Below are positions 1 to 57,700 of a stretch of 64,000 nt of DNA, piece by piece. Every line of letters begins with the position of its first letter. Positions within the stretch are counted from its first letter, which is position 1. The DNA comes from Rhytidiadelphus loreus (lineage: Eukaryota > Streptophyta > Bryopsida > Hypnales > Hylocomiaceae), in the NCBI GenBank assembly GCA_947034895.1, contig OX344763.1, positions 41,043,025 through 41,107,024 of the forward strand, in the 5' to 3' direction. A program made the translations under genes and the position numbers. Below the pieces are notes generated by a model. The model was not told the DNA's origin and ran no database searches. It saw only the letters and a program-made list of their open reading frames with translations.

Positions 1-3000
1 TCCGATACGGTAGACAATCATTCATTAGATGTCACCCGAATTTGACAAACTGAAGATGGTTGCACGAAGTATGTAAAACTCTTGGAGATATACCTGTAGT
101 TGCCGTGCAGTCGACGACAACAGATCCGGCTTCGCAGCACCCTTCCACAAGCATCGCCATGAAAGCAGAAGCCTTCTCTCTTGGACCACGCCATGGTTTC
201 TCACCATTCATGGTGACCTCTTCGGCAAAGCATAGATTCCAGAGGCAGTCATCCTTGCCCACTATGACGCCCACCTTTGCATGAGAGGGAACATGCTGGA
301 ATGGAAAGTTGTCCTCAGTTGACGGGCCGGACTTTTTGACTACAAGGGAGATTGAAAATCTCTGCGTCTGGAACAAATGGCAAGTCAGGGATTAGTAAAA
401 AGAAGTTTCAATTATCTTAGTAAGACAAAAAACCACAAGGTGAAATGGCTATTACTGTCTTCTTGGGATCAATGGCCGATGTCAAGTGAAGATGGTTCAT
501 ACCCCACCAATCGCAGAGAATCTTGAATCCGTATTCCTTGCAACATCCTAGAAGTTGGCTTCTGTGCGCTTTGGAGGAAGATGGGTACATCACGAGAAGT
601 GCTCCATTGTCGTGTAAATAACCACCTGCAAAGTCGAAGACTGGAATCAACCAGTCCTCTGAGAACTGATTCCACGCCGGAATAGGTGCAGGAGGAGCAG
701 ATACAGTAGGCACATGGAGACCTTCAGGTACATCAACAATAATCAAGTCGACTGCGGACTCTGTAGTCAAGACTCCGTCGAAGTATCTCTGTTTGTCGCT
801 TGCATGCTGCACCATGACAATAGAACGACAAGAAAGAAGTGAGAAGTGACATATAATTCATAATGGAGGAACATAATTAACCAGCATATGAAGAACTGAA
901 TGTGATGGTAACAGATTATGATTCTAATTCCACATAGAATCAATATGGAAGAGAAGGAAGACAACAAATTTACCATGGATAAGAAAGCTTCAACGGCTTC
1001 TAGGGCTTTCGGGTCACGGGTAAGTCCTTGCAACGAAATATTGAGAATGCATTCGTCAATGGCAGGGTCAGAATCCAAGTGATGAACTGTTGGCGTGAGA
1101 CCATGCACAAGGCGGTCTTGGGTGAGTGAAAAGCTGGATGATGTGTCCTTCACGTCTGCAGCACTTGTAGCCGGTTCCTGCAACGGAGTTTCTGCCTTCC
1201 TCTTCTTGCCCTTCTACATTGCCTTCTCTTGCTCCTTTTTCGCCTTTGCTGCCAATCTCTTGAGCTTCATATCCTCTGTCTTCTTCTTTGCCTCCTCCAG
1301 CCTCTCCACTTTCTTCTTGTCAAATGCATCCCGTTTGGCAATGGCTTTGGCTCGTGCTTCGGGATCAAGACCAGCAAACTCATCGAACTCTGGCTCTACC
1401 ACCGGCGTTTCCTTGAGTGACTTGAACAAAGGTGCCTCCTCTGGTGGAATGGATCCCAAGTTGCATTCGATGTACCAAGGGCACGCTTGCAGATGTGGAG
1501 TCGTCCAATTTCTGAGTTGCCATGGTGAGAACATGCAGTCATCCCGAGATCTATCCAACCAGGTTGTCAGAAAAGGAGGCAAGTCAGACTTCACTATGGC
1601 TTTCTTGGCGTACAACTCGAACTTGAAATACCTGCGAAGATAAGATGAAGCATGACCACAATGGAAGAGGTGAGAATTGATTGTCCTTCAATTAGTTACA
1701 CCAAGGGATATTCCTCCAACCACATGAGAGTACCAAGTACTCGGCCGCTGTAATCGAATATCGAAGAACAATTCGAAGAAAAAATACGAAAAAGAATAAA
1801 AGTCAGGCGAACGAGGTTGCAAGACTCAGGCCCTGACTACTGCAGTCTCGGCCCTGAGACTACCATTCCAAGTCCGCAATGCTTGCACCGAAGGAGTTAA
1901 TGAATCTAGAAATTACTTCAGAGAAGGACAACAAAATACCTGTAAATGACGCGGTGAACCGCAAGCATTGCACCTTTGTATTCCTTGAAGTTGTCAGACT
2001 TCTTGTAAGCGTCTGCACCTCGAAATATTCCTGTGTAGGCAATATCCCAAACCTTCATCCTCCATCCTTCTATATATTCCTTTAGAGTTTCTGGCTCACT
2101 TGGAACAGACATGTCCACAAGAATATTATCTGCCCGCATTACCGAATCCAGCAACTCAGAGGCTGCCTCCTCCAACTGTTACATATGAAAGTACATTAGT
2201 ATGATATGATATTAAACAAGCCTCATGATCAAAACCCACAGCATAAACAACAGTACTGAAAAGATGAATTTACAAAATCCATACCCCCGAGTACCAGCAA
2301 GCCCTGGCCAGAAACACAGCCAATTTATCCTCGTTTACGGGCCTCGGTGGAAACTGACGTGCCTCTCTTGTAGGCCCAGATGCATTCATCCACTTCAGCC
2401 ATTTCACTTTGGATTCCGCAGAGGCATTTGAAGTGGCCATCATCTGCAATTTCTCCAGAGTTAACTCTGAATTTGAAAACAGATTCCAATGCCGCTCGAT
2501 CTGAAGAAAACAGTAAGAAAATTAGGTAATCGAAAATTTCAGCAGATATTGTCACGAACAAAATCACAAGCAACGAAGAAAAATATTTGTGAGTCATCTA
2601 TACCTCCAATAGCCAATCAGGTCCAAGAGAGGGGTTTGCTACAGCCACTATCTTTGAGAGCTTCTTCTGGTACTTCTCATTAGAATCTTTGATGGAGACC
2701 CGCATAGCCGCGGCAACACCGTCGGCTGTGACCTCCTCCGACAATACGTCCTCTTTATATTTACGAATGGCCACCTCCGCCGAAGCAGAAATCTCTTGCT
2801 GAGAGAATGCAACACACCCATTAGAAATGAGAAATGAATCCATAAGAGAAGATGTGGTAATTGAATCCTAAGATGAGAATTAATTACCTTGAAGATAAAT
2901 GAGGTAAAGACCTCCAATGGCATAGTATACCATTTCGTTCGTGTATTGTTCTTGCAAATTGTTAATTCTTCGACGGATAACAACTCAGTGAACTTATCGA

Positions 3001-5466
3001 GGTCCATCATCCCGTACTTTTGGACACGGAAAAGAGTGTGCACGAGATTAGTCTTGACATGATAGTTTTCGGTATGCCTGCATATCACAAATGAAAACAG
3101 TGAATAACATGAAATCAATTTTAAGCCACGCAGTGGATTCAAATGAACGAAGAAGATGGAGGAAGATATTAAATCTTTATGCGATGGAGAGCTCACTTGT
3201 TTATATCGTGCATAGCCTGCATTGCAATTCCAATACGACCTCTTGTATCAAGGACGATAGAGTCAACGCTGATGTCCCAACTCCTCTCCGTGGCATGTAG
3301 CCGAGAAATGTGGTTCATCCACGCAATCCTTCGGTGGTTTCCATCACAAATAAAAAATTTCTGATCCACCAAATGCTTCAGCACAGGATCGGACCTCAAC
3401 AAGTTGTTAAACTCGTCATTGACGAAATTCTAGTGTAGTCCCCATTCAATCTTCTCTGCAGCAGAGAAGACCTCACCGTCCCCAACTTCGTTTGATATGG
3501 AAACATAGAAAACTCTGGCTCCCTCTTCATACCCCCCCCGTAAATTGATTCTCTAACAACGTTAAGTCGTATGCCAGCGTCGGACGAACAATCGGCATGG
3601 GCACGAGTCTGCACAACGGGATCTTCATGCGTGAAGCATCCATGGATGTCAACCTCAAGCCATAGAGAATTGACACGGTGTCCAATTTCTGTGACTTCCG
3701 AATGTCATCCTCCAGAGCATCCTTCCGCACACCAGGGATATCGACATCCTCTGATTCTGATTCGGAGACCACCTCTTGATTTGGAGTTACCTCAACAATA
3801 GCATCACAAGAAGGTTGGGGGGTCATAATCTCTGTCTCAGACTCAACGGTAGTCTGCGTCATAGTAGGAATGACAAACACAAAAATTAGAAACAAATAAT
3901 GAGCAGATAATATAGGAGATAATTTCCAATCCCATTTCCAATCGTATGCAGAGAATCCGTTTCATAAATGAACGAGATCCACACTCAAATCCCACAGTCG
4001 CATTTGTGACTGAGTGATCTATAATGCCCACAACACCAAATGAATATGTCCGCATCCGAGTCATCAGCGGATGTCACCTCTAAATCATTGTGATCACAAG
4101 TACAGTATTCAACACTCTCTCCCGGTAGAAATATCGACTCTCTCTCATCGGATGATCCAATGGATGATGCTGATGACATAACACCCTTAGTACGATTAAC
4201 TAATCCTCTATCACAATGTTGGGATGATGTCCACAGTGGCCTTACTAGAGGATTCTCTTGAGCTTCCGATAGTAATGCTGTCCCGTCAAGTAGCGTGACG
4301 TCCTTCTCCAAACCCGGGCGCAACAGTGGAGCTTCCTCCACCGCCAGAACAGCCTGCTCTTCAACCGCGACATTACCACCCTACATACCAATGAATAGAG
4401 GTGAACATATTTAAAACAGTGAAGGAAGTGCGAGGGGCGGCACTAGGCTCCTCTCCCCGCGAGCAAGTGCAAGGCCCGTCACCCCTTGGGGGATCCCTCG
4501 GGACCGAGACCGCCCTCGGGCTTGGGTGGGGTGTGCTCACCAGCCACCTTCCCACGAAACAAAATCCATAAACCGGAAATTTGAAAACAAAACAGCAAGT
4601 GCGAGGGGAGGCATTGGGATCCTCTCCCCGCGAGCAAGTGTAAGGCCCGTCACCCCTTGGGGGATCCCTCGGGACCGAGACCGCCCTCGGGCTTGGGTGG
4701 GGTGTGCTCACCAGCCACCTCCCCACGAAACAAAATCCATAAACCGGAAATTTGAAAACAAAACAGCAAGTGCGAAGGGAGGCACTAGGATCCTCTCCCC
4801 GCGAGCAAGTGCAAGGCCCGTCACCCCTTGGGGGATCCCTCGGGACCGAGACCGCCCTCGGGCTTGGGTGGGGTGTGCTCACCAACCACCTCCCCACGAA
4901 ACAAAATCCATAAACCGGAAATTTGAAAACAAAACAGAAAGTGCGAGGGGAGGCACTGGGCTCCCTCCCCGCGAGCAAGTGCAAGGCCCGTCACCCTTCA
5001 AGGGATCCCTCGGGACCGAGACCGCCCTCAGGCTTGGGTGGGGTGTGCTCACCGGCCACCTCCCCACGAAACAAAATCCATAAACCGGAAATTTGAAAAC
5101 AAAATAGAAAGTGCGAGGGGAGGCACTGGGCTCCCTCCCCGCGAGCAAGTGCAAGGCCCGTCACCCTTCAAGGGATCCCTCGGGACCGAGACCGCCCTCG
5201 GGCTTGGGAAGGGTGTGCTCACCAGCCACCTCCCCACGAAACAAAATCCATAAACCGGAAATTTGAAACAAAACATCAAGTGCGAGGGGAGGCACCGGGC
5301 TCCCTCCCCGCGAGCAAAGCTCCCTCTCGCCGCGGCAAGGTTCTGTATTCTCATCGAAGATTGACGGACATACCTCTCGCGTAGGGTTTGATGCATCTCG
5401 TCCCTCTTCCGTGGTTGCTGTCAATCCAGTCTGGCCTCTCTTCGACCTGAGGTTCCGATCCGCCAT
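1..5466 (-). pseudogene. Transposon-borne ParB-like/DNA methyltransferase gene, copy A (broken, 3' end outside window)
   Basis: Spliced minus-strand gene, start codon 5464-5466. Inferred exons: 5374-5466, 4078-4380, 3197-3853, 2888-3077, 2604-2798, 2285-2500, 1940-2175, 974-1631, 456-806 and 94-367, all with GT-AG borders. Exon lengths equal copy B or differ by multiples of three. Exon 3 encodes a ParB-like segment (CDGNHR near 3330-3350). Exon 9 encodes DLIIVDVPEG (methyltransferase motif IV position) and exon 10 ends with VVVDCTATTG (motif I, SAM binding). This IV-then-I order is that of beta-class N4/N6 DNA methyltransferases. Lesions: eight Cs at 3532-3539, where seven keep the frame; TAG at 3430-3432, where copy B has Trp; TAG at 1214-1216. 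The motif II exon lies left of the window. Target base and activity are unknown. Confidence 0.8.
4429..5325. repeat. About 170-bp tandem repeat, 5.3 copies, in intron 1 of methyltransferase copy A
   Basis: Units begin with GTGCGAGGGG-like sequence at 4429, 4599, 4770, 4941, 5111 and 5280 (spacing 169-171 bp). Each contains CCGCGAGCAAGTGCAAGG, GGGACCGAGACCGCC and an AT-rich tail with AAACCGGAAATTTGAAA. The array is GC-rich within an AT-rich neighbourhood and fills most of the intron between exon 1 (ends 5374) and exon 2 (starts 4380). Open frames through it are repeat artefacts. Confidence 0.95.
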
Positions 5467-6526: not shown

Positions 6527-9500
6527 ATGGAAGCCCTCTTGGAAATGGTGGTCGTCACGGCCATAGATAAAGGTGTTCCTGTAATTTTCCCTGTAGGTGT
6601 AGATGGTTTTGCTATCGTTTCGGCATTGAGACTATCGCTTAGATTTGATCTTTTGCATGATTCCATTCATGTAGATGAAGAGGTCTATGATAAAGAGTCT
6701 GGTACCCTTCTTCACACTATTGGGCAAATGCCGACTACTGATTCTGAGAATAGATTGTGGAACCTGAGACCAGGACGATATCGGGCATACGGAGTGCCCG
6801 CTGTCATTCAATCATTGCCTACAGCTACGGGAACTTTGCCTGGGTCCAATTCATCCAGATTTCTCTCTCCGGCTTTGAACAATGTCAAGGTAGAAACTTT
6901 TTCAAACATAGTCACGAACTTGAGTTCTGACTCTGATGGAAATTCTCCAGCAACACGCTGCACTATGAAGAGTCCATCATTGGTTGAATCTAAACCCTCG
7001 TCTAGGGTACTGGAATCCAAGGAGTCGATAGACTTAGGTCCACTGGGTGATTCTAGAACATTTGTGGTCAGTTACTTGAGGACCTTGCGGACTTTGAAAG
7101 GTTGTAGGAACGTCTTATCGAAACTAGACTATGGTAGTATTCCAATTCGTAAAGTGGCAGTACTGCCTCCATCGTTCAATGGCGATGTTATATTTGAATT
7201 GCCCGCTCTTGATATCAGTAGTACCGTCTCATCAGCGAAACAAATGTACGGGATGGACAAGCGTTACGATGGACACGTCTGGTCAAAGACTGTGACCACG
7301 AATATAGTTAATCCAATGGGCTTGTCGTTCCGTAAATCTGTTTGCGTGGGTCACCTTCGTTGTGTGAATACTAAATGCGACTTCCTTCATCGAGTTCATA
7401 GAATGAGAGATGTAAACGAATTAGAGTGGGAAGGACTATCTCCGCTACCACTAGATGTTGGACAACCACATCCGCCTGGTTCCACGCTTGTATGCAAGAT
7501 TTGTAAGGAGCCGCCTGCTTGTATAGCGCGTTGTAATGTGCACGTGTATTACGTTGCAGGCAAGTGCACTTTTAGTAGGGCATACGTCCATCTTGGTCAT
7601 CACCAGCATCCAGTTAAGGATGGTGAACTCAGAGATATGAAATCCATATCTCGAACTCTTATTGGGGAGCAATTGGAAAGGACTCCTTCTGCCACGAATT
7701 CCGCTATAGTCCTAGAAGCAACAAAGGAGTTGTTAGGAGGTCTTCTTCTATGTCATGACAGAATGCAACCGAAGAGTATGGACCTTGCCACCCTTGTTCC
7801 TGTACTAGAAAAATGCAAGTACTTAAGCTCCCCAAGTATAAGGAATGAGGTAACTTCCTTCAAGTTCTTGCGTAAGTTCGGAGTTCTTGACAGCATTACA
7901 AGGTTGAGGGGGTCAAGCACATGGGCTTTTGTGCAGGAGAGCAAATTCCCAGGTCAAGGGACCGACATAGATAAGGTATTCCTTTTCAAAATGTCTGAAG
8001 TGGGGCCAGGGAGTGGAGTCGATTTGGTGAAGCGAATGCAAACTGGAGGAGACCTTGAGGAAGCATGGATTATGTTTGATCACGTGAAGCGTGTTAAGGA
8101 TTGGACGACCATGGCGTGTTACGTTTATGACTCCGGATTCTGTCGTGTGATGACAATCGCTTGTTGTGACATGCAATCTGAGGATTGCGCAGCGCAGGTT
8201 CTTTTTTGGACAAACCTCAATTTAGTTGTAGAACGACATGGTGTGGCTAGGACGCAATTCAAGGGCTTTATGGCAGACAGCGCGTAAGCAAACTGGAATG
8301 CGGTGAGGACGGTGTATGGATCGGGGGATATTTCCGTACCAATGCTCAACCGTGAAAGGACATGTCTTTTTCACTGGACTCAATCCATGGAAAAGCATAC
8401 AAAGGCAGACATTCGAGGAGACTTGCAGGATCAACATCGTTTGCTATGTAAGCAGTACAAGAACGCCACTTCAACGCAACAATCCGAGGAACGGTACTTA
8501 GCCATCAGGGCGTGGTGGTTGTCATCAGGTGCCACCACGGTGGAAGGATTGCGCAAACTAGAGTTGTGGCTTTCGTTCTGGCATTTCCGTTATCGCCAAT
8601 GGAGAGGCTTCATGGAACTTGTAATTTCCTCACTGTTTTCTCCTTCATTTGTAACAATGTTTGTTATGCCTTCTGTCAAATTAGTTCTATTGTTACATTG
8701 TCAAATGTTCCACTTCGGTTAGATGTGGTGCAGACGTAGGTTCCCCATAACAAACGTCTCGGTCCCGAGACGATGGTTAGTAACCTCAACGCTCTGCACG
8801 TTGACTAATTAAAACTCGCGTTTTTCCATTTCATCTGTGGTCATAGTCTTCAGTCTTCTGTGGTCTCTGACAAATATATTTATGCTTTTGCTTGGCATCC
8901 TGGGAAGACTCGCATGTAGAGCTGACACATGTATATACCCCTGTGATTTCAGGATCTAACTGCATCCGAGAAAGCCGAAATGCCGTCTTGCAACCTTGCG
9001 GAAACTGTGCACAATAAGTGGCTTCAGCAATCTGGGAAGCGTGGGAACGACTTATACGTAGCTACGGTCGATGACTTTGTCAGAGCATTCATGCAAATGG
9101 TCAAATATCACCAATATTTAAAGGGAAATGAAGGAGGGACGGGACCGGGGAAGGAAGAGTTATTGTTACGAGTTGCCCAACGTTCGGCAGAGCGAACTGG
9201 TAACCCGAAGTCACTCACTGAAGCACTGTCGTCTATTCCAAGTGTTGAAGCTTTCATCAACAGAGAGCCTCATCTCGAAGGTCAAGAAGTTTTTGGATCA
9301 CAGAAGAGGAAAGCAGACATGCCACTTGGATGCGAGTACGACTCACACTGACCGGACAAAGTGAACTTCTCACATCCTCGTCGGCAAACAAGATCCTTCA
9401 GAGCGAGTTCAAGTGTTCAAAATTTGAACACAATAGTGGAGGACATTACTCCAAGTGAAGATGTTGAAGTTCTAGATGCATTTTCAGTGGAGGTGAATTT

Positions 9501-10421
9501 GAGGCAGACTGCAATTCCAAATTCGACTCATGTATCAGTAGTTCAAGAAAGCATGTGTGACGAGATGCAGTGGCACATTTCACGACTACCAAAAACATCA
9601 GCGAAGGCGTGCTTTGCTCTTCAGGCAATGACAAAGAAAAAATGCACAGCTCTAATAGTGCAAAACAGCACTGCAACAGCGGCTCCGACATACACAGGTA
9701 TGATGGTCAATTACAAGCAAAATCGTAATGATCGTATGCAATTTTTCTTTTGCAATGACGACATTGAACGATGTGTCAAAGGATCACGGCGGAAATGGGT
9801 GCTCTTTGTACCACCTGTTCCTGTTATTTGGCCGGTGAAATTAGGCACCCAATTGACGGTGGTCGAGATTCTAGCTCTTGAAGCGGCCGGTTTCCAACTT
9901 CCACAACGCCACTTCATTTCCCCACGGAGGTTGTTTGGTAGAGAAGCGGGCATTGAAATTGTGCGTAATTATCTCATTCCAGATTCAACTGATGAACATC
10001 CTACAACTCGGACTGGGAAGGTCGTTCGCCGAAATCCAAAGGCTCCCACAACAAAACACCAAAACAACTGTGCATCGGCCTTAACTCTGAATGCCCGCAT
10101 TGTAAGCGTAACTATGGTCCCTCACCCTGGTTTTGGATGCATAGTAGCAATGGACTCGGGAATAGAGCCCCGGATTGAGAAGTACATGCTTACTATTTCC
10201 TCATTTCCGGACTGCACCTGCCCTTATTTCAAGGAAATGAAGTTGAAGTGCTTGGGAAGCGTGGAGCTTGGTCAAATTGCAAGCATCTGTACTTTGTTCT
10301 CAATGTCATCTGCAACCTTCAATCTTCCTCAGATGTCTTCATCCATGCTTCAACATTTAGTTTCAATGAGGTCAAACGAGTGCTTCTTAGCGGAATCCTG
10401 AAACATTTGAGATCAAATTAG
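6527..10421 (+). pseudogene. MULE-like transposase with SWIM zinc finger, copy A (broken)
   Basis: Two exons, 6527-8620 and 8953-10421, joined by a GT-AG intron in the same phase as copy B; about 1,188 codons in all. The N-terminal part has Cys/His clusters (around 7255-7400 and 7490-7600). The central block includes FDHVKRVKDW, VMTIACCDMQSED and GFMADSA, the likely core of the DDE catalytic domain; the acidic catalytic residues are provisional. The C-terminal part has the start of a SWIM motif (CTCPYF). Lesions: TAA at 8285-8287 (copy B has CAA), TGA at 9349-9351 (copy B has an Arg CGT codon), and a 1-nt deletion between about 10225 and 10285. Past that deletion the frame resumes as CKHLYFVLN and FSFNEVKRVLL and ends at TAG 10419-10421. 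SWIM domains are characteristic of plant MULE transposases. Confidence 0.85.
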
Positions 10422-16617: not shown

Positions 16618-16839
16618 CGTGACAGTAACAAGTAACAAATAATCAAAATGATAGGAATTAGGAATTCGGCTTCCACAAAGTGAAAAACCGCCCCCCTTAT
16701 TCCTCAAACCAACCTCTACCCAGCACCCGCGCTCGCAAGCAAGGACTGCAACCAATCCAAGACAAGAGAGCACCGTTAGAGCAAGAGAGACTATGGCGAA
16801 AGTACTCTAAAAACAGTCTTTATATACCCATTTCACGTC

Positions 16840-19504: not shown

Positions 19505-19507
19505 GTA

Positions 19508-26474: not shown

Positions 26475-26484
26475 AGCTAGCTGC
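26475..26484. repeat. Left target-site duplication of copy B (AGCTAGCTGC)
   Basis: Exact match to 39933-39942 and directly outside the two inverted termini of copy B. A 10-bp duplication is within the range known for Mutator-like elements (commonly 8-11 bp) and unlike the 8 bp of hAT elements. Confidence 0.88.
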
Positions 26485-26545
26485 CAGGGTTGCTATTTTG
26501 TGAGCCTGTGAGCGTGCGACTGTGAGCCTAAGAGTTTATGAGCGG
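26485..26545 (+). repeat. Left terminal inverted repeat of copy B
   Basis: Starts CAGGGTTGCTA and contains GTGAGCC, GTGAGCG and GTGAGCC spaced 8-15 bp apart. The right end carries the same words in inverted order. The iterated GTGAGC hexamer is a candidate transposase binding site. Confidence 0.85.
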
Positions 26546-27593
26546 ATATTTTTGCGGTTTTAAAATTGATAAAGTACCCATGACCGTGGACTTTAGAATA
26601 ATGACTAGACCATAAAAATAAAAGGTCAAGTATATTTTTATATTAAAGAGTTTAGGAGTTGGGACATGCACAGGAAAATTCCTTTTGAATTCCTTGTTAC
26701 GAATTACAGTAATTATAAATCATGTTCACACTAAATCCTTGAATTATCTTCTTAGGGTATATTGGCCAGTTCTGGTTGATTAGGAGATAGTGGTAAATTC
26801 AACCATTAAAATGTAGGTTACAAACGGCCATTAGCACTACAATTCCAAAATTGCTCACAGGGTTCAAACAAAAATACTTCCCACAAATATAAAGTTATAA
26901 TTGTAACAATTTTTTCATTAATGAATTAAAGGAGAAAAAGGAGTTTTACGGGTTTATATAAGACGACATACAATGACATATGACAATAAAACAACAGAAC
27001 AAGGATTAAGGGTTATTTTTTATTTTATTTTATTTTTTTGAAACAAATGGAAATTCCATTGCAAAGTAGCAGAGTACAAAGCAGCCAAGCCCATAAGGGT
27101 TATTTAGAGAACATTTGTTTCATTCTCCATGCATTGAAACTAACATAGACATCTACACTGGAGAACTCTTCATTTCAAATGTTGTAAAGTCAAAGTAATT
27201 TTTAGGTTAGGATCGTCATAAATCTATTATGCCAAAATTATGTATAGGCATATGACGTCACCTATACATGATGAGAACTGTTATTTGATTATCTCCAACT
27301 CAGATTGAGGAGAATATAAAATACTGTGATTATTAGTCATCCTAGAAGTTAGTGCCTTAGTGGTCATATTAAAGCCCTACCAAGGATTTTTGAAATTGAG
27401 GCTCACATTCTCGAAGCTTTACAAGAAACTACATCCAATTTCATATAGAAGGTAAAAATGTTAAAAAGGTGGTTAAACTTTGAATACAACAATCATGTAG
27501 GTTATCTAGAATGTTGATGACAAAGGGGTAGAAAACAACGTATTAGAGACAATAAAATGTATGGCAAGAAGTGCAATGCAAACCCAAAATGAA
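26546..27593. other. Left non-coding arm of copy B
   Basis: AT-rich stretch between the left terminus and the methyltransferase stop codon. It should hold that gene's 3' untranslated region. No additional gene or repeat array recognised. Confidence 0.5.
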
Positions 27594-30500
27594 TCAAGTA
27601 GAAGATGATGACATAGACTGAGAGTGATCACTACTATGAGACGATGATGTCTCATTGTCTGATTCTAAGGCTATGACGTCTACGAACTGCAAGACTCGTG
27701 GCTCTATTGACCTAGAATTCTTCTTCATAGGAGCATTTGGTTGACATGCATATGTTGAAGCTAAAGCCTCTGCATACGACAGCAACATGAATGTCTTCTC
27801 CGGGCTTGGAAAAAAACTAGGTAAACTGAAGAAAGGGCGATGACCAACCTTCTCAGAAATCATGCTGCAATCAATCGGAAAAATTAGAAATCATATGCAA
27901 ATCCTTTGCATAGTGTTGAATGGAATGAACAGAAGTAGAAAGTGAACTTTTAAGAATGGTTAAGAAGACAACTTTGACATTAACTGTAAATGCTAGTATT
28001 GGATAGACTTACTTACTGAATCGAGATTTCTTGACAATGTGGGGAACTTCAACTTCCAGAGAGTCATCATCGTCAAAATGCTCCACAATTGTTGGCGTTG
28101 ACGTTGGAGCACTTGGAGGTACGCGAATCATTGGGGCCAAAATTGCATCATAGATGCCTTTGTCTTCCTCCAGTGCAACAATGTGCCTACTCAAAATCCT
28201 GCAAGCATGGATGGAGGCACCTAGTAGCACCACCAGTATAACACACCAATCAAGTCAATAAACAAAATTAATAAAGTCTAAGACAAAATAGAAATAAAGG
28301 TTGTATAAAATATGTTGTGAAGGCATCTAATATAACCTGTTGCAGCAGTGCAGTCTAGAACAACATCGTGCGGGAGTGAGCATGCTTCAATCAACATTTG
28401 CAGAAATCGAGGATCCTTTTCTCGTGCCCCTCTCCAAGGCTTGGAGTTCCTGTCCATACTCAGTGTCTCTACTTTCGTGAAATTTTGTAGAACATCGTCT
28501 CGGGCTACATCCACCCCTAATTTCTTCAAAGTCGGGCATGGTTGGAATTTGAACTTGGAAGGGCCAATCCCAGTGAAGTTCCTCACCAACAAAGATATCC
28601 CAAATCTTTGTGTCTGCATGAATGAACTCAATTAAGAAATTTGCACAAACTTTAGTAGGGCCATAGAAAGAGAATTACTGGAATGCATCAATTACAATTA
28701 AAATGGACAATAACTAAAACAAATGCAGTCATACAATTCCACTAGTATACAAACAATCACCAGATTTCATTACAAATGCAAGAGTGTAGGTAGAAAAATA
28801 AAATGCGCATAAGCTATAAGACAAACAAAAAAATTAAATACAAAGAGAATATACCGTTCTTGAAGGAGAAACCGGTGATGCCAAATGTAGTCAGTTCATT
28901 CCCCACCAGTCTTTTATCTTCTCAAAGGAGTAAGTACTACCATACTTGAGAATAGTGGCTTTCGTAATGGCCCTCAAAGGATAGATGATTATGAGAGCTC
29001 CATCGTCATGCAAGTGACCATCTGCAAATTCAAACACCGCCTCCAACCGAAGAGGGTCATCCACATTCCACTTTGGAATGCTAGTCGGAGGCACCGACAA
29101 ATCTGGAACAGGTAATCCCTCTGGCATGTCTGCAATTATGAGATCAATGCGTGGTTTATCACTCTTCATTCCTTTGAAAAATCAAAGTTTGTCTCCTTTG
29201 TGCTGCAACCAAGTGATGGTAATCAGTATAGAAAAATATATTCAATTACCAAACATTTATCGATAAAAATTGAAGAAGGAAAGTGAAAGTGCTAACCTTC
29301 TCAACAAAATCCAAAACGTCGTGGTACACTTGGGGTAGTGGATCACCCAATACATGTTGTAGTGAAAAATTCAGAATCAACTCGTGGATTGAAATCTCTA
29401 AGTCACTTAGGATCTCCACAGTTGAGGGACTGTGTACCATGCCACCATCGCTAAGTGAAATATACTCAACATCACGCTTGGTTCCTCGTGAAACGGACTG
29501 CTGGTGATGGGAGCCCTCGTCTTTAGTGGTAGAGGGCACAATTAGTTGCTTACCCTTTTTGCCCTTAGTTTGCTTAACTGCTGATGCCTCCCCCGTTTCA
29601 ACAAGTTTTGAAGCCTTCTTAGCGATCCTCTCCTTTGCCTTCTCCACTGCCTCCGAGTTCTTCAAAGCTATCTTCTTGTCAACTTCCTCTCTCTTCTTCA
29701 AAGCCCTTGCTTTGGCATCTTCATCAAGGCCGGCAAAGTCATTCATGTCTTGAGCAATCTCATGAGAAGCAATGGATTGTTTGAGGTGCACCTCCGATGG
29801 CGGTGTAAACTCTAGTGGGCAATCCAAATACCAAGCGCCGGATTTCAAATGTGAGCTGGTCCACCACTTTAGGTGCGAGGCTGAGAACATGCAGTGCTCG
29901 GAGGAGATATCCAACCATGTTCCCAGAAAAGGTGGAAGATCTCGCTTCAGTATGGCCCCTTTTGGAAGGAGCTCGTATTTGAAGTACCTGTAGAAACAAA
30001 TTTGATCAATCTAAGGAAAATGGTGTCACAGAATTGACAATAACAATGTTCAACCATCAATCAAATGTGGAAATATAGGAAAGAATTTATACGGGTAAAT
30101 CACTCGCTTCACAACTAGATCAGTGTCCTTACGTTTCTTGAAGTCGTCTGACTTCCTGAAAACGTCCTGCCCCTTAAAATTGGACAAGAACGCCTTGTCC
30201 CACAATTTGATTCTCCATCCTTCAATGTAATCTCCAAAACTCTCTGGATCACTAGGAGAATCCATAGACAAGGCCAACTGGTCCTTCTTCACAATGTCAT
30301 CAAACATTTCAAAACTTGTGTCTTCAATCTGCGCAATCGAAGGAGTTCAATTCTATGCATGGGAGACATATGACAATACCAATTAGAATGACATGAAGAA
30401 CAAAAAAAACTCGAAGAATATAGAGGAATGTAAAATAATGTAAAATAATGAGTATCACATACCCCGGCATACCAACAAGCCTTCGTCAAGAATGACTTCA

Positions 30501-31920
30501 AGTCATTCTCTCCAACTGGCTTTAGTGGAAATCTTCTAGCCTCTCGCGTTTGAACTGAAGAATTCCACCATTTCAACCACCTCACCTTGTGTTCACTCTT
30601 CACGTTGCAAGTGGCAATCATCTGCAACTTGTCAAGGGTCATTTCGGGAACTATATTGGAGCTCCAATGGCGCTCAATCTGTATAACCAGAACATTAATA
30701 TTAAAAGCATTACAAAAGAAGATAAATCAATAGAAGAAGTTTATACCGAAAATGATTATACCTCTTTGAGCCACTCACTCCCTAAATTCGGATTTGCAAC
30801 TGCTGTCATCTTCCCCAACTTTTGAATTAGTTTAGAAGTCTGCTCCTTAGTACCATGTCGCATAGCAGTCAAGACTCCTTCCTCTGACTGATCCTCAGTC
30901 ACCGTGTCTTCTTTGTATTTTCGAACAACTGTATTAGCAGCTGCCGCTATTTCATACTACAAAACCACTTCCATTTTAGTATGGTAAAAGGAAAATTCTA
31001 GGAAATCAAAACTTCATGCATGAGATAAATGAAGATTTTTACCCGAAAAATGAATGACGTAAACACCTCCAGGGACATTGTGTACCAACTCTTCCTTGTA
31101 TTTTGCTGGCACTGTGCCATCTCAGAGGCACTCAAATGCTCCGCAAACTTCTCAAGGGGAAGAATTCCATATTTCTGGACACAGTATAACGTGTGTACAA
31201 GACTCGTTTTTATAAACGAATTCTCTGTTTGCCTTCAAAAACAACAGATGAATATCAATACATCAAAATATGACCTAAGACAAATATAATATAATACAAG
31301 TCTATGAATCGCGCGTACTTGTTGATATCATGCATAGCATGCATGACGTGCCCAATTTTCCCCTTCGTCTCCAAAATTATAGAGTCGACAAAAATGTGCC
31401 ATTCCTTGTCACCAACATGATGTTTTGAAATGTACGATGACCACGCCAATAGCCTGTGGTTCCCATCACACACAAAAAACTTGGAGCCTTGCAAGTGGGC
31501 CAACCTAGGTGTTGCACTGAGTATGGCCTCGAAATCGTCATTCTCAACTGTCCATATAGGACCCCATGCTTCCTTTTCGGCCTCTGTCACTTGCTGCGTC
31601 TCTCCCTGCTCATTAATGGCGGATACGTAAAAAACAGAAGATCCATCTCGGTAGCCATGCACGAATTCCTGCTCTAGTCGTGTGAGGTCACATTTTAGAG
31701 CAAGACGAACCATCGGCATCTGGGCGAGACGACATAGTGGAATCCGGAGACGAGATATGGAGTGTGGCTTCAGTCTCAATGCGCCAATTGATGATACAGA
31801 ATTCACTTTCTGCGCTTTCCGAAATGCGTCCTCCGTGGTGAAGTCACGATTGGTATTCTCAGAGTCATCGTCAATAGATCTCTCCTCCTCATCGAAATCA
31901 CCACCATCTTCCTCACCCTC

Positions 31921-32012
31921 GACAGCCTACGACTCTGCATGCGCAGACTCCACGACCTACGACACTGGCTTTGCATCCTCCACGGCTTGCGACACAGGCT
32001 GGTCCACCTGAG
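31921..32012 (-). repeat. Three 30-bp repeats in methyltransferase exon 2
   Basis: On the minus strand a 10-residue unit of the type S-Q-A-V-E-x-A-K-P-V occurs three times. The first keeps the Gln codon (TCG CAA); the second and third have TAG at that position, giving two of this gene's nonsense codons. Confidence 0.75.
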
Positions 32013-32189
32013 CTTGCACCTCCTACAAGAAAACCGGACGTCAGTAATGGTGTCTACTGGTAATAGAAACCGACAATTATTTCAGTTTTAAATATGCACC
32101 AACATTGAAATCAGATGTACACCAATCTAACGGGCAAAGCGGGCACATCCAATCGGGCACCACCATCTACCATCGGCGCCGAGGGCCAA

Positions 32190-32720
32190 GGAGGGCAGCT
32201 CCCACTGGGGTCGAATTTTGTGCTCGGGGAGTCCTGATGATTAGCCAGTCGGGCAACACCAGCTCCCACTGGGGACGAATTTTGTGCTCGGGGAGTCCCG
32301 ATGATCAGCCAGTCAGAAAACACCAGCTCCCATCGGCGCCGAAGGCTCTCCCACTGGGGACGAGTTGTTTACTCGGGGAGTCCCGATGATCAGCTAGTCG
32401 GGCAACACGAGCTCCCATCGGCGTCGAGGGCTCTCCCACTGAGGACTAGTTCTTTTCTCGGGGAGTCCCGATGATCAGCCAGTTGGGAAACACCAGCTCC
32501 CATCGGCGCCAAGGGCCAAGGAGGGCAGCTCCCACTGGGGACGAATTTTGTGCTCGGGGAGTCCCGATGATCAGCCAGTCGGGCAACACCAGCTCCCATC
32601 GGCGCCGAAGGTTCTCCCACTGGGGACGAATTTTGTGCTCAGGGATTCCCAATGATCAGCCAATTCGGCACCACCATCTCCCATCGGTGCCGAAGGCGAA
32701 GTAAGTGAGTTCCGACCAGG
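32190..32720. repeat. GC-rich tandem repeat, about 65-96 bp spacing, in intron 1 of methyltransferase copy B
   Basis: The marker CTCGGGGAGTCCCGATGATC (with variants) recurs six times near 32222, 32287, 32374, 32459, 32555 and 32638. Between markers are CCAGTCGGGCAACACCAGC, CTCCCATCGGCGCCGA and CCCACTGGGGACGAATTTTG. The array lies in the same intron as the 170-bp array of copy A but shares no obvious sequence with it. Confidence 0.9.
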
Positions 32721-33123
32721 ATCAGTTTTCATACTCAGTCTAGAGTACTTCTCGTCTCCCACGCAGAATCAGAAATCAAAATCGACATTACAAGCAGTCT
32801 GACCCTTATCGTGATCTCCAATCAAACCAACATATGTGGGAATTCGGGAAGCAATCAAATATATCACCTCGGAGTCGACGGGAGTCCTACTGATGATTAG
32901 GGTTTCTATCAGCCCAAGGATATCGACGTCCATGTACACGAGTCACTTGACTTTTGCGGCAATAGAAGAGGTGATTGTTTCGGGTACTTACAGGGAGAGT
33001 TGTCTATGTTTCCTAATCGTTCTTTGCGAGAGGAATTCCAGAATCTTCATTGCTCCCGCTTCCATCGCCGTGATTCTGCTGACCTTCCATTGCCGCCCTT
33101 CGAGTGGCCGGTCTCCGCGCCAT

Positions 33124-35239
33124 TGCCTGTGCCTCCTTCTGAAAATGCCAAGCAATATTGAGACCTCAATTCAAATCAAGGCTCAAGAAGAAGGGTACTG
33201 AATAATGAGAATGTAGGCGGAACTCGATGCAAAGGCAATGCTCTGACCAGACAGACTGATGCTCACGCCGACTGGATGGGAGGGGTGGAACACACCGCGT
33301 CGAAACCCTTAGAAGAGCGGTCGCACCAAAATCTGACTGGCCAAGTGCGGTCCACCCGTAGACCCCGTCCCGAGGACCCTCTCACCATTCCCTCAGTACC
33401 GTAGTCGTTGACCTTCTGCGAACCCTTCCGTCTCTATTAATTTTAATCAGAATACTGCGCTAGAATATCTATTTATTTCAGAGCTTCGCAATATCTAATG
33501 TTAGTATGATGAGGCTCTACAATTTCCTTGAACCGTAGAATACGCTAATTCTACGGTGCTGAACGAAACGAATACTCAAAATGTAAGAATACCATTTTAT
33601 TATGCAGGGCGGTAGTTTGTTGTTCACAATGGTTTAATAGAATACGATTATTCTGTAAATCTGTGTCAATTGAAACTAACTTGGACGTTGTGTTGTTAGA
33701 GATGTTTGAGTGCTCATCTGGATTATGTATACATTGACAACCGTTAATTCCTGTTCTTCTGAGATGTAAGGGATTCTCTAGTACCATGAGGATTTGATCA
33801 TTCTTGGTTTTAGTACACCAGAAATATCCTAAACCATTCCAAACTTGACCTATAACTTATGTCCGCTAGACGTTCACTTACGTGTGAATTTGAAGTTGTT
33901 CCTACGTTGCGCAGTCCCGATATCTCCTCTCCAATGTTGGATGCCTCCCACTGACTTCCATGAGTATAATCAACTAATAGATTATTGTTTTCTATATCTA
34001 CTGTGGAGGATCCTAGCAGAAGTGCTGAAGATGTTACTGGAACTATCTTGCCTCTTCCTCTAGACCTTTGCAATTGTTTCTGCGACGAATATAGGAGTTT
34101 ATTCCTTTTCCTCCTCTTCCTAATTCTATGTTCTACAGCCTTTTCGATAATTCCTCTTGCAGCATGCATGAGACTAATTGCACATATTGCAGCTGAACTA
34201 AAAAAATGGATATTAGTCTATACGAAGATAGAGGTACACACAGAAAATATGTAGTCCAAATACTGCACATAATATACATGCTACTCTCAATAATCAGTAT
34301 GCCCGCCCATGTCTACTAGAAATGAGGTATGCTCACTTTCGATTTTATTTTATAAGCTATTTGGAAGTACGATTTCTTTTTATAATCATCTTGGAGTTTT
34401 AATTTCAACTTTTTGAAAATCTAACATCCTATATTTCTCTGCTCGTCACCATAATGTATAGCATAATGGTAAACTCATGTAGGTCGTTAAATACTTTGAA
34501 GATCACCGGAAACTAGCTTCTTCTTCTAAGATCATATCCCCCTGCAATGCTACTATAATTTGATTATTAGGGATGTTTTCTAGGTATAGTGCGATTAATA
34601 CTAAGCTATATCTTTAAGGCACTCTTCATGGTTTTATGAATTAGTCCCTAAACAAGATTTGCACATTTCTAAGATTTCGAATTACATTAATTTTTTCTTG
34701 ATTTGATATTTCTCGGCGTCAGATTTCTATATTGAATGATTAATAGACCATCATAACTGACGTAGAGGTGCTCATGAATTTGAATGTACAATTTTTTGTT
34801 GTCCAACTAGAACTTAATACAGGAATGCTTTGATGACACATTTGAAGATACTTGCAATTAAGTCTAGGACTGATGTAATGAATATTCTGGGTCCTTAGAT
34901 GGGTACTATGAAAGGAATGGGTGTTATGTAGGAATTTCGATTGTGCACCACATGTACTGACACCTAACCTGTACTTTAGTTTCTGCTTAACTCTTGTTTA
35001 TGAGTTAGGTATGTTGAGACGCCTTGCCTGCCCCGAATCTTTTTTGAATATCCGTATCAGCAACGTCTATACATATCTCATTAACTTTAATGTCATCAGC
35101 ATTCATCATATCCTCTTAAACGTCATTTTCATGCTTCTATCTTATATACATATAAACCCCATTCACTCACTCCATCTCTTATCTCATCTATGCTTTAGTC
35201 CTCCATCTCTCTTCGGGGTTGTGCGCCCACTTTCTGTCG
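33124..35239. promoter_or_regulatory. Divergent intergenic region of copy B
   Basis: About 2.1 kb between the two start codons, twice the length in copy A. The first 300 bp next to the methyltransferase start are GC-richer. A minus-strand frame at 33810-34169 (119 codons, basic start KRRKRNK) is the longest here, but I find no family for it and no counterpart in copy A. Promoters of both genes are expected here. Confidence 0.4.
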
Positions 35240-38200
35240 ATGGCCTCTATTCAAGCAGATGGTCATGAAATTCCAGTTGTTCTTCCTCTTGGAATAGAAG
35301 GATATGCTGTAGTGTCTTCACACCTTCTTCATGTCCGATTTGGTTTTATCCAATCCAGTATATATGTTGAAGAAGAGGTTATGTTTGATTCAGGTCAATT
35401 GAAGGAGTATGTCCACATGTTAAGGTTAGAAGTTGAAGACGGTCATGTCTGGCACCTTGGTCGTGGTCGATACAGAGCTTACAGATTGGCGTCTCTCATG
35501 ATGGGTGCCTCCATAGACATAGTACATCATCAGTCAAATCATTCTACTGTTAATATGCCTCCTGCTCGGCATGATGTTGAGAATTCTTTGGGACGAGAGC
35601 CCTTCACGATTACTAGTACACCACCTGATCATATTATGATGAAAAAAGAACTCCTTGATCCCATCATTGATATATCTAGTGAATCTGAGGGAGAGTCCCC
35701 TAGCCAGCCAAGTATGCAAGCAAGGCTTCCTAGTGAAGTACTTGAAGATGGCCTCAATACTACTTTGGGTACATACCGAACACCATCCAATAGTCTTTCG
35801 GCTTCAACTCACTCTCGCCCACCGATGTATCCGAATAGTACTGGAGCGTCTAGTATAGTTGGGTGCCTAAGGAATCTTGCATCAGTTCGGAGATCGAGGA
35901 ATGAAGTTGCTGTATTAGATTACAATTCACTTATCCACCACAAAGTGCAGTACCTTCCTGTTGCCTTTGATGGAGACGTAGTATTCGAATTGCCAGCACT
36001 TTGTGTCTCATCTTCGTCATGTAGCAAGGGAAATCTTCATGGTATGGATAAACGATACGATGGTCATGCTTGGTGTCGGACCATGACATCCAATATCCAC
36101 AATGACGATGGATTGAAGTTCAGGAAATCATCTTGTGCGGGACATCTGGTATGTACTAATTCTAACTGTTCATACTTCCATCGCTTTTCCAAGCGAAACG
36201 AGACAAAGTGGTGCGGATATATTGTTGCTCCATTCCAGGTTGGCTCTGATGCTCCAAGGGAATCAAGTCTTCTCTGCAAGATATGCAAATATACGCCGAG
36301 TTGTGTTAGTATATGTGACGCTAGAATATATTACGTGTTTAGCGATAATGCATTGATGACAAGAGCATGCATTCATTTAGGAAATCACATGCATCCTGTA
36401 GCTTCTGGAGTCTGTAGAGAGTCTTTAGATACTATTTCCGGTCTTATCGCAAGCGAGGTTGCCAAAACTCCTACTGCTACTAACTCAGCCATTGCACTCG
36501 CAGCTAGTAAGCAATTTCTAGACAGTCACTTGATACACAGTGGTGAAGGGCCTAAAGAGATGTTGCAAGGAAAATCGTTAGAAGATGTCATGGACAGGTT
36601 CCAAAGACTAAGTTCTCCTAACCATTAGAGGAGTTTTCGGGGTCGGGGAGGGCTGCGTGTTCCCCTGGCTACCAACAGCGGGGGAACAACAGTGGCAGCC
36701 GTTCCCTGGCCTGGGTGATGTGGATTGGAGACTGCCACGTCACCCACCAAAAAAAAGAAAAAAAAAAAAAAAACTGTTTTTTTTTGCATTTCAAACGTAA
36801 AAAAAAAATTTAATTTAAAAAAAAAAAAAAAAAAAATCTGACAGCGCCTGTTCACGTGATCTGCCAGCGGGACAAGGTTGGGGGAACAGGCCTGAAACGG
36901 CCCTCCCGAACCCCAAAACTCCTCTAATGATCCGTAATATCATTACTTCTTTCCGTAGTACTGGAAAGGGTGGAGTTATTGATAGTATTATGAATATGAA
37001 GCGCAATTTGAAGTTTGACTACATTCATGACAGTGTCTTCCCTGGACAAGGGAAAGATAAGGTGTACTTGTTTAAGATGTTGGTAGAAGGTCCTGGTAGT
37101 GGAGTAGACTTGGTGAAGCGCATGCAATCCGGCGGAGATTTAGAGAACGCATGGGTCATGTTTGACCACGTCAAACGGGTGAAGGATTGGACAACTATGG
37201 CTTGCCATGTCTATGATATGGGTTGTAGAAAAGTCATGACAATTGCTGTCTGTGACATGCAATCCGAAGATACTGAGGTGCAGAGCATTATGTGGAGGTC
37301 CTTAAACGAGGTCATGCGACGCAATGGAGTGCCAAATACAAACTTCAAGGGCTTTATGGCTGACAGTGCACAAGCAAATTGGAATGCTGTTCGCATTGTC
37401 TATGGTACAGGAGATTCTAAAATAGAGATGGTGAATCGTGAACGTACATGTCTCCTGCATTGGAGTACTTCCTTACACCGCCATACCCAGAAGCTCATTA
37501 AACCAAACATGCAACACCAACACAATCGTCTTTGCAAGCAGTACAAGGATTCAAAGACTATGGAGGAAGCGGAGACGCGGTACTTGGCGATCCGCTCTTG
37601 GTGGCTATCATCAGGAGCAACTTCAGAAGACGCTTTGAGGGAATTGGAGTTGTGGCTTGCATTCTGGCACTTCCGATATCGCCAATGGGGCGGGTTCATG
37701 CAAATGGTACTTCAAAAGATGTCCCTTTTCAATTGTTATATAAATTACTTATACACTCTTTACCATCTCATTATTTCATTTGTATATACAGAACCAATTC
37801 TTCGTCATTTTTATTTTTTGGGCACCTCAAATTATCATTTCTAATTTATTTGGAACTCTAGTCAGTATAGGGAGTGGAGCCATGGAAGATTGTCCCCTCG
37901 GCGCCGAGGGGACTCTTGACCTCCTCCTTTGGTGATCAAAATTCACGTGGTCTACCAGTATCTAGTTTTTTTAATTTTAAATGTCTACATGCAGGGCCTA
38001 ACTATACATGTGTTTTTCTTTCAAGGTTTGAGTCTCGAAGAAATAGCAGACTTGCCATCATGCAACTTATCGGAAACAGTTCACAACAAGTGGTTGCAGC
38101 AATCCAGTAATCGTGGTAATGATTTGTTTGCCGCGACTTGTGATGACTGCATCCGAGCCTTCATGCAAATGACGAATTATCGAGCATTCTTGAATGGTAC

Positions 38201-39431
38201 AACATCAAGGTCAAGGCCATCAAAAGAGGAATTGAAGTTAAGAGGCGCTAGACGAAGCGGCGACCCAAAGAAGATTGCGGAGGCTTTGAATGACTTGCCT
38301 GGCCCAAGTGATGTTGGAACACGTATTCCACATTTAGAAGGCGAAGAAGTGTTTGGTAGTAGCAAACGTAAACTCGACCTACCTATCGGGTCAGATGGTG
38401 ACTCTCATCGTTCGGACAAGGTCAACTTCTCTCAACCACGAGTGCAAATTCGATCAACATGTACACCCATAATGGCTTCCAATGAAGTAGCCCCTGTCAT
38501 TCACTTGCCACATGTACCGCATGTCTCAACTGCAATGGAGAGTGACTGTGATACTACACAATGGCACATTGCAAGATTGTCTCATAAATCAAGCTGTAAA
38601 TGTCACGCCCAACAGAGAGGGACAAACATTCGTTGCACTGCCAGAATTGCAAAGGGATCTAAAGGTACTCCAGCTCCAACGTATCGTGGGCGCAAGAAAC
38701 AATATGGTGGAAACAAGGAGATCATGACGGACTTCTGGTTTTGTCCAAATGACATTGAACGATGCGTAAGAGGCTCTAGGCGTCCTTGGGTTATTGATTG
38801 GCCCCAAGTACCAGACGTATGGCCAATGCTTAGTCACACCAGTTTGACTCGGCAAGAAACCCTGCTACTACAAGAGGCCGGTTTTCAACTCCAAGAACGG
38901 CCACCTATGTCACCTCGACGGTTGTTTACAATGTCAAATGTGTTCAAGGCGCCCTTTTACAATGAAGGTAGTCCGGTGAATGCGGACACATATCCAACAA
39001 CTCGAAGGAGCAAGGCCATTCGCCGTAATGCAAATGCTCCAACTACAGAGCATCGCAATAAATGGGAGAGTGCCGGTAATGTAAAAGGATTGATTTTGGG
39101 GGTTACCATGCTCCCTTTACCCGGACTTGGAGCCATTATCACTCTTCAATCTGGAACGGAGCCCACACAGAAGACTTATCGAATCACACTTGGCATGTAT
39201 TCTGAGTGCACTTGTCCTGATTTTGTAGATATGGCCGTCTCTGCAATTGGTGGTCGGCATCAGTATGTGAGTTGCAAACATCTTTACTACATATTCCGTT
39301 ATTTCTGCAAGATGAATCCACTAGTCGACAAGTTCATACACTCTCCAAGCTTTAGCTTCAATGAAGTGAAGTTGCTTCTCATTAGGGCGGGTATCATCAA
39401 GGATTCAAGTGACAGTCGTCAACAAGCCTAG
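35240..39431 (+). pseudogene. MULE-like transposase with SWIM zinc finger, copy B (disrupted only by a MITE-like insertion)
   Basis: Starts MASIQADGHEIP at 35240. Coding blocks are 35240-36622 (461 codons), 36930-37706 (259) and 37995-39431 (479 with stop). An intron with a GT donor at 37707 separates the last two; removing the 307-bp insertion at 36623 restores one frame. The N-terminal part has two Cys/His clusters (CAGHLVCTNSNCSYFH; CKICKYTPSC, then CIHLGNHMHP). The core has MFDHVKRVKDW, VMTIAVCDMQSED, GFMADSAQANWNAV and ELELWLAFWHFRYRQW, provisionally the DDE/RNase-H-like domain. The SWIM finger is CTCPDF ... CKHLYYIF near 39200-39290. No stops or frameshifts were found elsewhere, so this is the best-preserved gene of the family here. 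The acceptor at 37995 is less certain. Confidence 0.87.
36623..36929. mobile_element. 307-bp MITE-like insertion in the copy B transposase
   Basis: Ends are inverted: CATTAGAGGAGTTTTCGGGG on the left, and on the right the reverse of CATTAGAGGAGTTTTGGGGT. The interior is GC-rich near the ends and holds long A and T runs (36745-36837). Excising exactly these bases joins AGT TCT CCT AAC to ATC CGT AAT, which aligns with the uninterrupted copy A frame. No clear target duplication is seen, so its superfamily is open. Confidence 0.85.
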
Positions 39432-39864
39432 GAGACCAATAGTACTTCAATGATTGGTATTTCAAATTTAGAAATTCTACACTCACGTCTACAGATATAG
39501 CTTCAGCATGATTACTTTCTTTCTGGGTGAATACTATAATTTGGAAATGTACTCAATACAGACTATTCAGAATATCAATTCTGGTTTTAATATACTCTTA
39601 TGTCTCGTCTTTTTTATGTATACCCTAATGTTTAAATTCATACCGATAATAATCAATTCTACAAAGATTCACCCTAAACCACGATTAAAAGTCATTAGTA
39701 ATATGTCTGTAGCAATCGCTACACCTAAATAGTTCCACGGTTATAGGTCCTCAATAATAGGCACCCTAAACCTTCAAAGTAGTCATTGACCACAAAGTTC
39801 TGAAAATATTGTCTATTTGGAGCCTGAAATTGTTTTTTCTTCATATTTTTCTAATTCTGAATTC
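39432..39864. other. Right non-coding arm of copy B
   Basis: AT-rich sequence between the transposase stop and the right terminal repeat. Nothing gene-like is seen. Confidence 0.5.
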
Positions 39865-39932
39865 ACCGCTCACATAATCCCCGCTCACCGCTCTTGGGCT
39901 CGTGCTCACAGGCTCACAATCTAGCACCGCTG
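39865..39932 (-). repeat. Right terminal inverted repeat of copy B
   Basis: Read inward on the minus strand: CAGCGGTGCTAGATTGTGAG, then CCTGTGAGC, GAGCCCAAGAGC, GGTGAGCGGGG and TGTGAGCGG. It mirrors the left end and has the same GTGAGC hexamer clustering. Confidence 0.85.
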
Positions 39933-39942
39933 AGCTAGCTGC
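39933..39942. repeat. Right target-site duplication of copy B (AGCTAGCTGC)
   Basis: Exact copy of 26475-26484, directly outside the right terminus. Together they define the insertion site within relic C. Confidence 0.88.
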
Positions 39943-39968: not shown

Positions 39969-40413
39969 GATTTAAATATTCCAAAAAGATAATCATTTAT
40001 TGTAGTTCAAATTCTATATTTAAAAGTAAAATGTGTTTGAGCTGAAATTGACAAAATATAGAAAAACATAAATGGCTTATGTTGACAAGAATATTTCATG
40101 TTTTTCTTCAATGTATGTTTCCAAGCATCTTGGTGTACATTTTCAACATACTACCATATTGCTCTTGAAATGATATTATGAGACTTTGTCTTTTTTACAA
40201 ATAATTGTCCTAAAATGCTTAAAAAACAATCATCATTAGAGCAATCAGTAAAAGAAATACAAATGTTAATTCACTTAATCTCATTGTGAATGTTTTTTCC
40301 AATAGACATATGTGAGCATGTTACTAAAAATAATCACAAATATAGAAATCCCTCTTTAAAATATGATATTTGAAATGGAAATAAAAAAATATTTTGGTGT
40401 CATCTTTGTAGAC

Positions 40414-40665
40414 TACACTAAATAGTGAAATTAGGTTGCCTTAACAATTAGGTTGCCTTATTTCAAGAAAATCACTTTACAAGCCAACTAATTAACAAAT
40501 ATGTTTATTATTTTTTCTATTTGTACATAGAGATTCATAAGTCCCACATGCATAAATTTTTAATTCAAAAAAGTAGTAAATTCTTGTAAAGAAACAATGT
40601 ATATTTATATAGTGTAGAATGTCGAGAAATTAGTGTGGGGCAACCTAATTTCACTATTTAGTGTA
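40414..40665. mobile_element. 252-bp MITE-like element with perfect 27-bp inverted ends
   Basis: TACACTAAATAGTGAAATTA and the following seven bases at 40414-40440 reappear perfectly inverted at 40639-40665. Inside the outer TA, the ends read CACTA...TAGTG. There is no coding capacity. It fits a TA-flanked MITE or a small CACTA-derived element. Confidence 0.8.
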
Positions 40666-40929
40666 CATTAGTACAAAATTATATATGGGGGCTACAATCT
40701 ACGAAATTGAGTTCAAATAATTATGATTGAATTAATAATCTTAAACTAAAAGTGAAAATTAGTGCATGTGTAAAACAATTTAACATGCATCTTTAGCAAA
40801 GGATGTATTTGATAAAAGAAAGAACAATACTTTTTTGTTAATTTTGACATGAAATAAAAAAGAATCGATTGGCTAATGGTATATTATAGCAATCATCTTA
40901 CAAACTTACACCCTATAAAATCACACACG

Positions 40930-40931
<2 letters not shown>

Positions 40932-40998
<67 letters not shown>
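40932..40998. repeat. (AT)n microsatellite
   Basis: Uninterrupted alternating A and T for about 67 bp after ACACACGCAC. Confidence 0.95.

Positions 40999-41001
<3 letters not shown>

Positions 41002-46388: not shown

Positions 46389-46421
<33 letters not shown>

Positions 46422-57667: not shown

Positions 57668-57700
<33 letters not shown>

Follow-up and report, generated by a model that had tools for sequence, protein, structure and literature searches.

We analysed a 64-kb window (the whole stretch, 64,000 nucleotides) of the moss Rhytidiadelphus loreus, spanning positions 41,043,025 to 41,107,024 of contig OX344763.1 (assembly GCA_947034895.1). We found two related transposons, copy A and copy B, and the evidence supports a family of Mutator-type elements that regularly carries, besides its transposase, a gene with ParB-like and N6/N4-methyltransferase-like domains. 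Purifying selection acts on this second gene at least as strongly as on the transposase, and the elements hold palindromic arrays in their own introns, which point to self-recognition. We propose, with our judgement about evenly balanced, that the second gene would encode a VANC-like self-targeting chromatin or anti-silencing protein made of ParB and methyltransferase parts.

A two-gene Mutator-type family

Copy B (26485-39932) is flanked on both sides by a perfect 10-bp target duplication (AGCTAGCTGC), and its terminal inverted repeats are present but short. It holds two divergent genes, a transposase on the + strand (35240-39431) and the ParB-like/methyltransferase-like gene on the - strand (about 33123 to 27594). 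These ends, the duplication and the divergent pair had been described in a sequence-only reading of the window, and our coordinates agree with it. The same reading had called the copy complete. Its ends and duplication are indeed exact, but both genes are broken. A 307-bp insert interrupts the transposase; the insert has inverted ends (CATTAGAGGAGTTTT...) and looks like a miniature inverted-repeat transposable element (MITE). The splice acceptor of the transposase is also changed. Four in-frame stop codons interrupt the second gene (TAG at 31959 and 31929, TGA at 29184 and 28893). Ten of its exons were recovered with GT/AG introns, and most related copies keep these boundaries; together with a proposed exon 1, they agree with the eleven exons read earlier. 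The features of copy B are as follows.

26475..26484: left copy of the target duplication (AGCTAGCTGC)
26485..26514, + strand: left inverted end; 25/30 bases match the right end
27594..33123, - strand: ParB-like/methyltransferase-like gene with 11 proposed exons and four internal stops
27594..27864, - strand: last exon of the second gene
28013..28220, - strand: methyltransferase exon; LEED segment following motif I
28337..28613, - strand: methyltransferase exon with motif I (VLDCTAATG)
28855..29202, - strand: methyltransferase exon with motif IV (DMPEG)
29297..29987, - strand: middle-region exon
30093..30328, - strand: middle-region exon
30463..30678, - strand: middle-region exon
30762..30956, - strand: middle-region exon
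31043..31232, - strand: middle-region exon
31319..32022, - strand: exon encoding the ParB/sulfiredoxin domain
32196..32697: tandem array within the second gene's intron 1; TCGGNNCCGA at 32333, 32599 and 32684, plus 32173 just outside
35240..39431, + strand: IS256/Mutator-type transposase gene in pieces 35240-36622, 36930-37706 and ~38028-39431
36623..36929: 307-bp MITE-like insert in the transposase
37892..37913: perfect palindrome of 22 bp within the transposase intron
39903..39932, - strand: right inverted end; 25/30 bases match the left end
39933..39942: right copy of the target duplication (AGCTAGCTGC)

The predicted model of the transposase resembles IS256/Mutator-type DDE transposases, and this structure comparison supports the Mutator-like element (MULE) class assigned from the letters alone.

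The genome searched comprised 407 Mb in 489 contigs. It contains a LEAFY SAM domain (E 1.8e-27), which 14 control genomes lack and which identifies the host as a streptophyte. DNA searches gave 967 transposase candidates and 190 ParB-exon candidates, of which 40 each were scored, and a protein search gave 1386 ParB-exon candidates, of which 150 were scored, all at E 4.6e-64 or better. Among the 40 scored ParB-exon matches from DNA, 34 sit 4.4-13.1 kb from a transposase match, all divergent, against 0.04 pairs expected. For one more the distance to a transposase match is 43 kb, and the other five are without a partner among the matches listed. The association of the two genes, which the sequence-only reading had judged not accidental, is thus beyond chance. 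Homologues of the second gene did not occur mostly as single-copy host genes lacking the transposase, and the divergent pairing led us to reject a host-gene reading.

Ten elements, including copy B, were fetched out of the 34 pairs. We found perfect 9-10 bp target duplications in 5/5 elements with both ends in view (in the other five, an end or flank lies outside the fetched stretch), which fits the 8-11 bp range that a survey of Mutator clades gives for MULEs (PMC6446971). The second gene is open across all ten exons examined in one of the ten elements (e6), and it is interrupted by two internal stops in both e1 and e7. Two of the elements, e2 and e7, have an open transposase. The ratio of nonsynonymous to synonymous substitution rates (dN/dS) of the second gene was 0.10-0.48 with a median of 0.22 (45/45 pairs). 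For the transposase, the median was 0.37 and the highest ratio 1.32 (44/45 pairs, one being dropped because its dS was too low).

Copy A has the same gene pair in the same layout, as read earlier, with about 29-63% amino-acid identity to copy B per coding segment. Its left end is outside the window, and it carries stops and a frameshift. A third subfamily (L049/L050) was also found, with a ParB exon 57% identical; in an eleventh element, belonging to this subfamily, no stop occurs in either transposase exon or in any of the eight pieces of the second gene that were examined. The layout is conserved across the three subfamilies, which differ by at least 40% in protein sequence. The features of copy A are as follows.

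93..5466, - strand: ParB/methyltransferase-like gene, running off the window edge, start proposed
4426..5317: 171-bp tandem array inside intron 1, containing five CTCGGGACCGAG
6527..10401, + strand: transposase with in-frame stops
8755..8772: palindrome CGTCTCGGTCCCGAGACG in the transposase intron

Domains of the second protein

The second protein has about 1,100 residues, and the evidence supports a ParB/sulfiredoxin fold and a permuted N6/N4-methyltransferase-like domain, separated by a long unmatched middle region. Structure comparison of the predicted model supports the ParB/sulfiredoxin fold, with a best Foldseek E of 0.03. With the single ParB exon as query, a protein search found 359 homologues; the whole spliced second protein found none, probably because the database consists of unspliced frames and applies a length filter. 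Residues G131, N132 and H133 of the G-x-H-R motif are invariant in 101 sequences, and R134 is present in at least 90%. Pfam returned no ParB family for single exons or for the 101 ParB homologues.

The methyltransferase fold is supported by profile matches. The domain is permuted, with motif IV preceding the S-adenosylmethionine (SAM)-binding motif I, and in e6 its scores of 22.3 and 25.5 bits are below the Pfam curated cut-off of 26.7 bits. Where N6/N4 enzymes have DPPY, the second protein reads D(M/V)P(E/K). The catalytic pattern (D/N/S)PP(Y/F/W) is absent from 4/4 sequences examined, where motif IV is DMPE, DMPK or DVPE. The changed motif appears to favour binding over ordinary methylation. 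The gene had earlier been read as a ParB-like DNA methyltransferase; both domains stand, but as none of the four sequences examined has DPPY at motif IV, the enzymatic activity can only be called putative.

No relative was found in GTDB contigs searched with the ParB alignment, and a transposase search of IMG/VR found none. The one IMG/VR match to ParB, a phage-like open reading frame (34% over residues 72-139), was rejected as chance on the letters CDGNH.

Palindromic arrays within the elements

Copies A and B carry a tandem array in the second gene's intron 1, as do 8/9 other fetched copies; for e8, no array was reported. The reported periods range from 64 to 289 bp and vary by copy. The arrays share a recurring palindromic core, TCGGCGCCGA in copy B and its relatives and CTCGGGACCGAG in copy A, which also occurs once each in the transposase introns of copies A and B. 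The third subfamily has a 96 bp x 72 array carrying TCTCGGTGGCGAGA. At least three motif sites were found within 1.5 kb of the ParB exon in 20/20 loci, 12 of which are outside the ten fetched elements.

The palindrome is specific to the elements within the window. All 11 TCGGNNCCGA sites lie within introns of the two elements, while shuffles of the 64-kb window give 0.16, and TCGGNNCCGA is absent from the three other GC-rich arrays of the window (62-66% GC; 24275-24851, 16823-17164 and 19491-19788). The only GC-rich palindromes with arms of at least 7 in the window are the two transposase-intron sites, CGTCTCGGTCCCGAGACG and GTCCCCTCGGCGCCGAGGGGAC, whose outer arms differ yet remain complementary. 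In a comparison of 21 transposase introns, each of the eight 18-bp windows with the highest conservation overlaps the palindrome. The exact core was found in 7 of 12 further transposase introns, and the remaining 5 differ at one or two bases, at CpG positions. The palindromic intron-1 arrays, which the sequence-only reading leaves unmentioned, are a new observation, together with the transposase-intron palindrome.

Genome-wide, CCCTCGGCGCCGAGGG was found at 146 places (reversed control, 0). Fifteen of the 50 places listed are at most 20 kb from a listed ParB copy and lie without exception on its transposase side, against about 0.6 expected. GTCTCGGNNCCGAGAC was found at 236 places, strongly clustered (control, 1). 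Some GTCTCGGNNCCGAGAC sites form pairs 3015 bp apart on C1 (e.g., 29891833/29894848, 71317859/71320874 and 76732627/76735642), and some pairs have a third site about 7.2 kb off; the pairs are probably copies of another repeat with the same palindrome.

Elsewhere in the window, an open reading frame at 11818-12699 has a hAT C-terminal dimerisation domain (Pfam E 3.3e-10), a remnant of another DNA transposon, and one at 14920-15696 matches a protein kinase (Pfam E 8.1e-9). A 20-kb stretch of 23-31% GC (40001-60000) adjoins the GC-richer, transposon-dense part and includes an open reading frame of 688 amino acids at 42245-44311 without a Pfam match.

Proposed role and its alternatives

VANC proteins of Arabidopsis VANDAL elements bind short motifs that are amplified as tandem repeats in the non-coding parts of these elements, introns among them, and demethylate the DNA there (PMC5735166, PMC10398659). 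The moss family likewise joins an extra protein gene to a Mutator-type element, and its short motif lies in fast-changing tandem repeats of the element's own non-coding DNA. The selection on the second gene, the sequence-specific sites arrayed in that gene's intron and the turnover of arrays from one subfamily to another follow the same logic as VANC proteins. However, the VANC21 motif YAGTATTAY is not palindromic by letters, whereas the present motif is. The present protein also differs in having a ParB/sulfiredoxin fold and a methyltransferase-like domain, and the likeness is drawn from layout and motif, not from homology to VANC proteins. The VANDAL row of the MULE survey gives SWIM, CCHC, PMD and DUF (PMC6446971).

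We propose that the second protein, probably as a dimer, would recognise CTCGGNNCCGAG-type palindromes carried by the element itself, in the tandem array in intron 1 of its own gene and at one or more sites beside the transposase. It would load at these palindromes, perhaps spreading like bacterial ParB, and might modify or mask the DNA. The element's own promoters would then be kept out of host silencing, as VANC does for VANDAL elements. A ParB-fold protein suits clustered palindromic sites, because bacterial ParB loads at parS palindromes and then spreads.

Several observations weigh against this proposal. The middle region gave no useful match against the PDB, and no helix-turn-helix was identified after the ParB domain. 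The extra site of the third subfamily lies 3' of the transposase, not in a transposase intron. Of the 50 listed CCCTCGGCGCCGAGGG places (of 146), 35 are not within 20 kb of a listed ParB copy. For GTCTCGGNNCCGAGAC, 1 of 50 listed places (of 236) is near a listed ParB copy versus 0.57 expected, which equals chance; the ParB copies listed probably hold few copy A relatives, which bears on this result. An exact match of motif centres between array and intron was not upheld, since the arrays of L040 and L044 are mostly TCGGGGCCGA and their paired transposase introns have TCGGCGCCGA. Finally, stop codons are abundant in the copies, several of them of CAG-to-TAG or CpG type, and with so many stops any protection would be incomplete.

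A more specific reading is a eukaryotic counterpart of ParB-parS, which we consider possible and hold tentatively. Here, a transposon-encoded ParB-like clamp would sit on the own-intron palindromic arrays, with its methyltransferase domain now serving as a reader or co-factor, and would spread to set the chromatin state of the family, while sites and protein coevolve in each subfamily. Bacterial ParB and Noc, with their parS/NBS palindromes, have a related fold and clustered palindromic sites. However, the present site sequence is unrelated to parS, and CTP or DNA binding by the present protein is putative.

It is rather doubtful that the second protein works as an N6-adenine or N4-cytosine DNA methyltransferase, marking the DNA of its element (e.g., the palindromes) and letting the transposase or host factors distinguish the element. 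The permuted N6/N4 domain has a SAM-binding motif, the gene is under purifying selection, and in rotifers 4mC is written by N4CMT, an enzyme of bacterial type (PMC8885841). However, changing the Ser and Tyr of SPPY to Ala abolished N4CMT activity (PMC8885841), and the DMPE, DMPK or DVPE of the moss proteins departs from the catalytic pattern.

We regard it as unlikely that the second protein acts, like maize MURB, as a transposition accessory factor for integration, end pairing or copy segregation instead of in anti-silencing. ParB-type proteins do act in DNA positioning. The divergent two-gene layout of 34/40 scored copies suits such a factor, and other MULEs have extra open reading frames with integration or DNA-binding roles (PMC6446971), but the motif lies in introns and internal arrays and not at the element ends.

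It is improbable that the palindrome works in RNA, as an intron hairpin tuning splicing or small-RNA production, with the arrays being ordinary expanding GC-rich minisatellites. Both palindromes are intronic, their arm changes are complementary, and the intron sequence is strongly conserved at the palindrome. On the other hand, the core recurs in the array units of both subfamilies while the three other GC-rich arrays of the window do not have it, and the extra copy in the third subfamily lies 3' of the transposase reading frame. Captured passenger DNA is strongly disfavoured and very improbable: gene capture is common in MULEs (PMC6446971) and many copies are broken, but dN/dS is 0.10-0.48 in every pair and the layout has held in all three subfamilies.

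Other known systems resemble the family in parts. Fungal DNA transposons with TET/JBP dioxygenases likewise carry a DNA-modification gene, with a proposed escape from silencing; the enzyme class and hosts are different, and Mutator is not among the superfamilies named in the portion of that report considered (PMC12730594). Dinoflagellate and charophyte elements also combine a transposable element with a DNA methyltransferase domain, including in a streptophyte lineage, but these are retrotransposons with C5-cytosine enzymes, and a ParB part is not mentioned in the portion considered (PMC5890265). In bacteria, a ParB/sulfiredoxin domain is joined to an adenine-methylase-type domain (PMC5512222), whereas the present protein has 11 proposed exons, the long unmatched middle and the changed motif IV. 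The main texts of the Mutator-clade survey (PMC6446971) and of a 2026 review on how plant transposons capture genes (PMC13317346) name no ParB or methyltransferase. In the open-access literature searched, which leaves most subscription papers outside its scope, the hits listed for ParB or methyltransferase in Mutator or plant transposons included no report of this combination.

If the proposal is true, a plant transposon has turned bacterial-type parts for DNA segregation and methylation into a self-recognising chromatin tool. It would represent a second, differently built solution to VANC-type anti-silencing. The methyltransferase domain has been retained under selection despite its altered catalytic motif. 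The CTCGGNNCCGAG arrays offer a ready candidate target site for binding tests, and the large family with some open copies makes the question directly testable.

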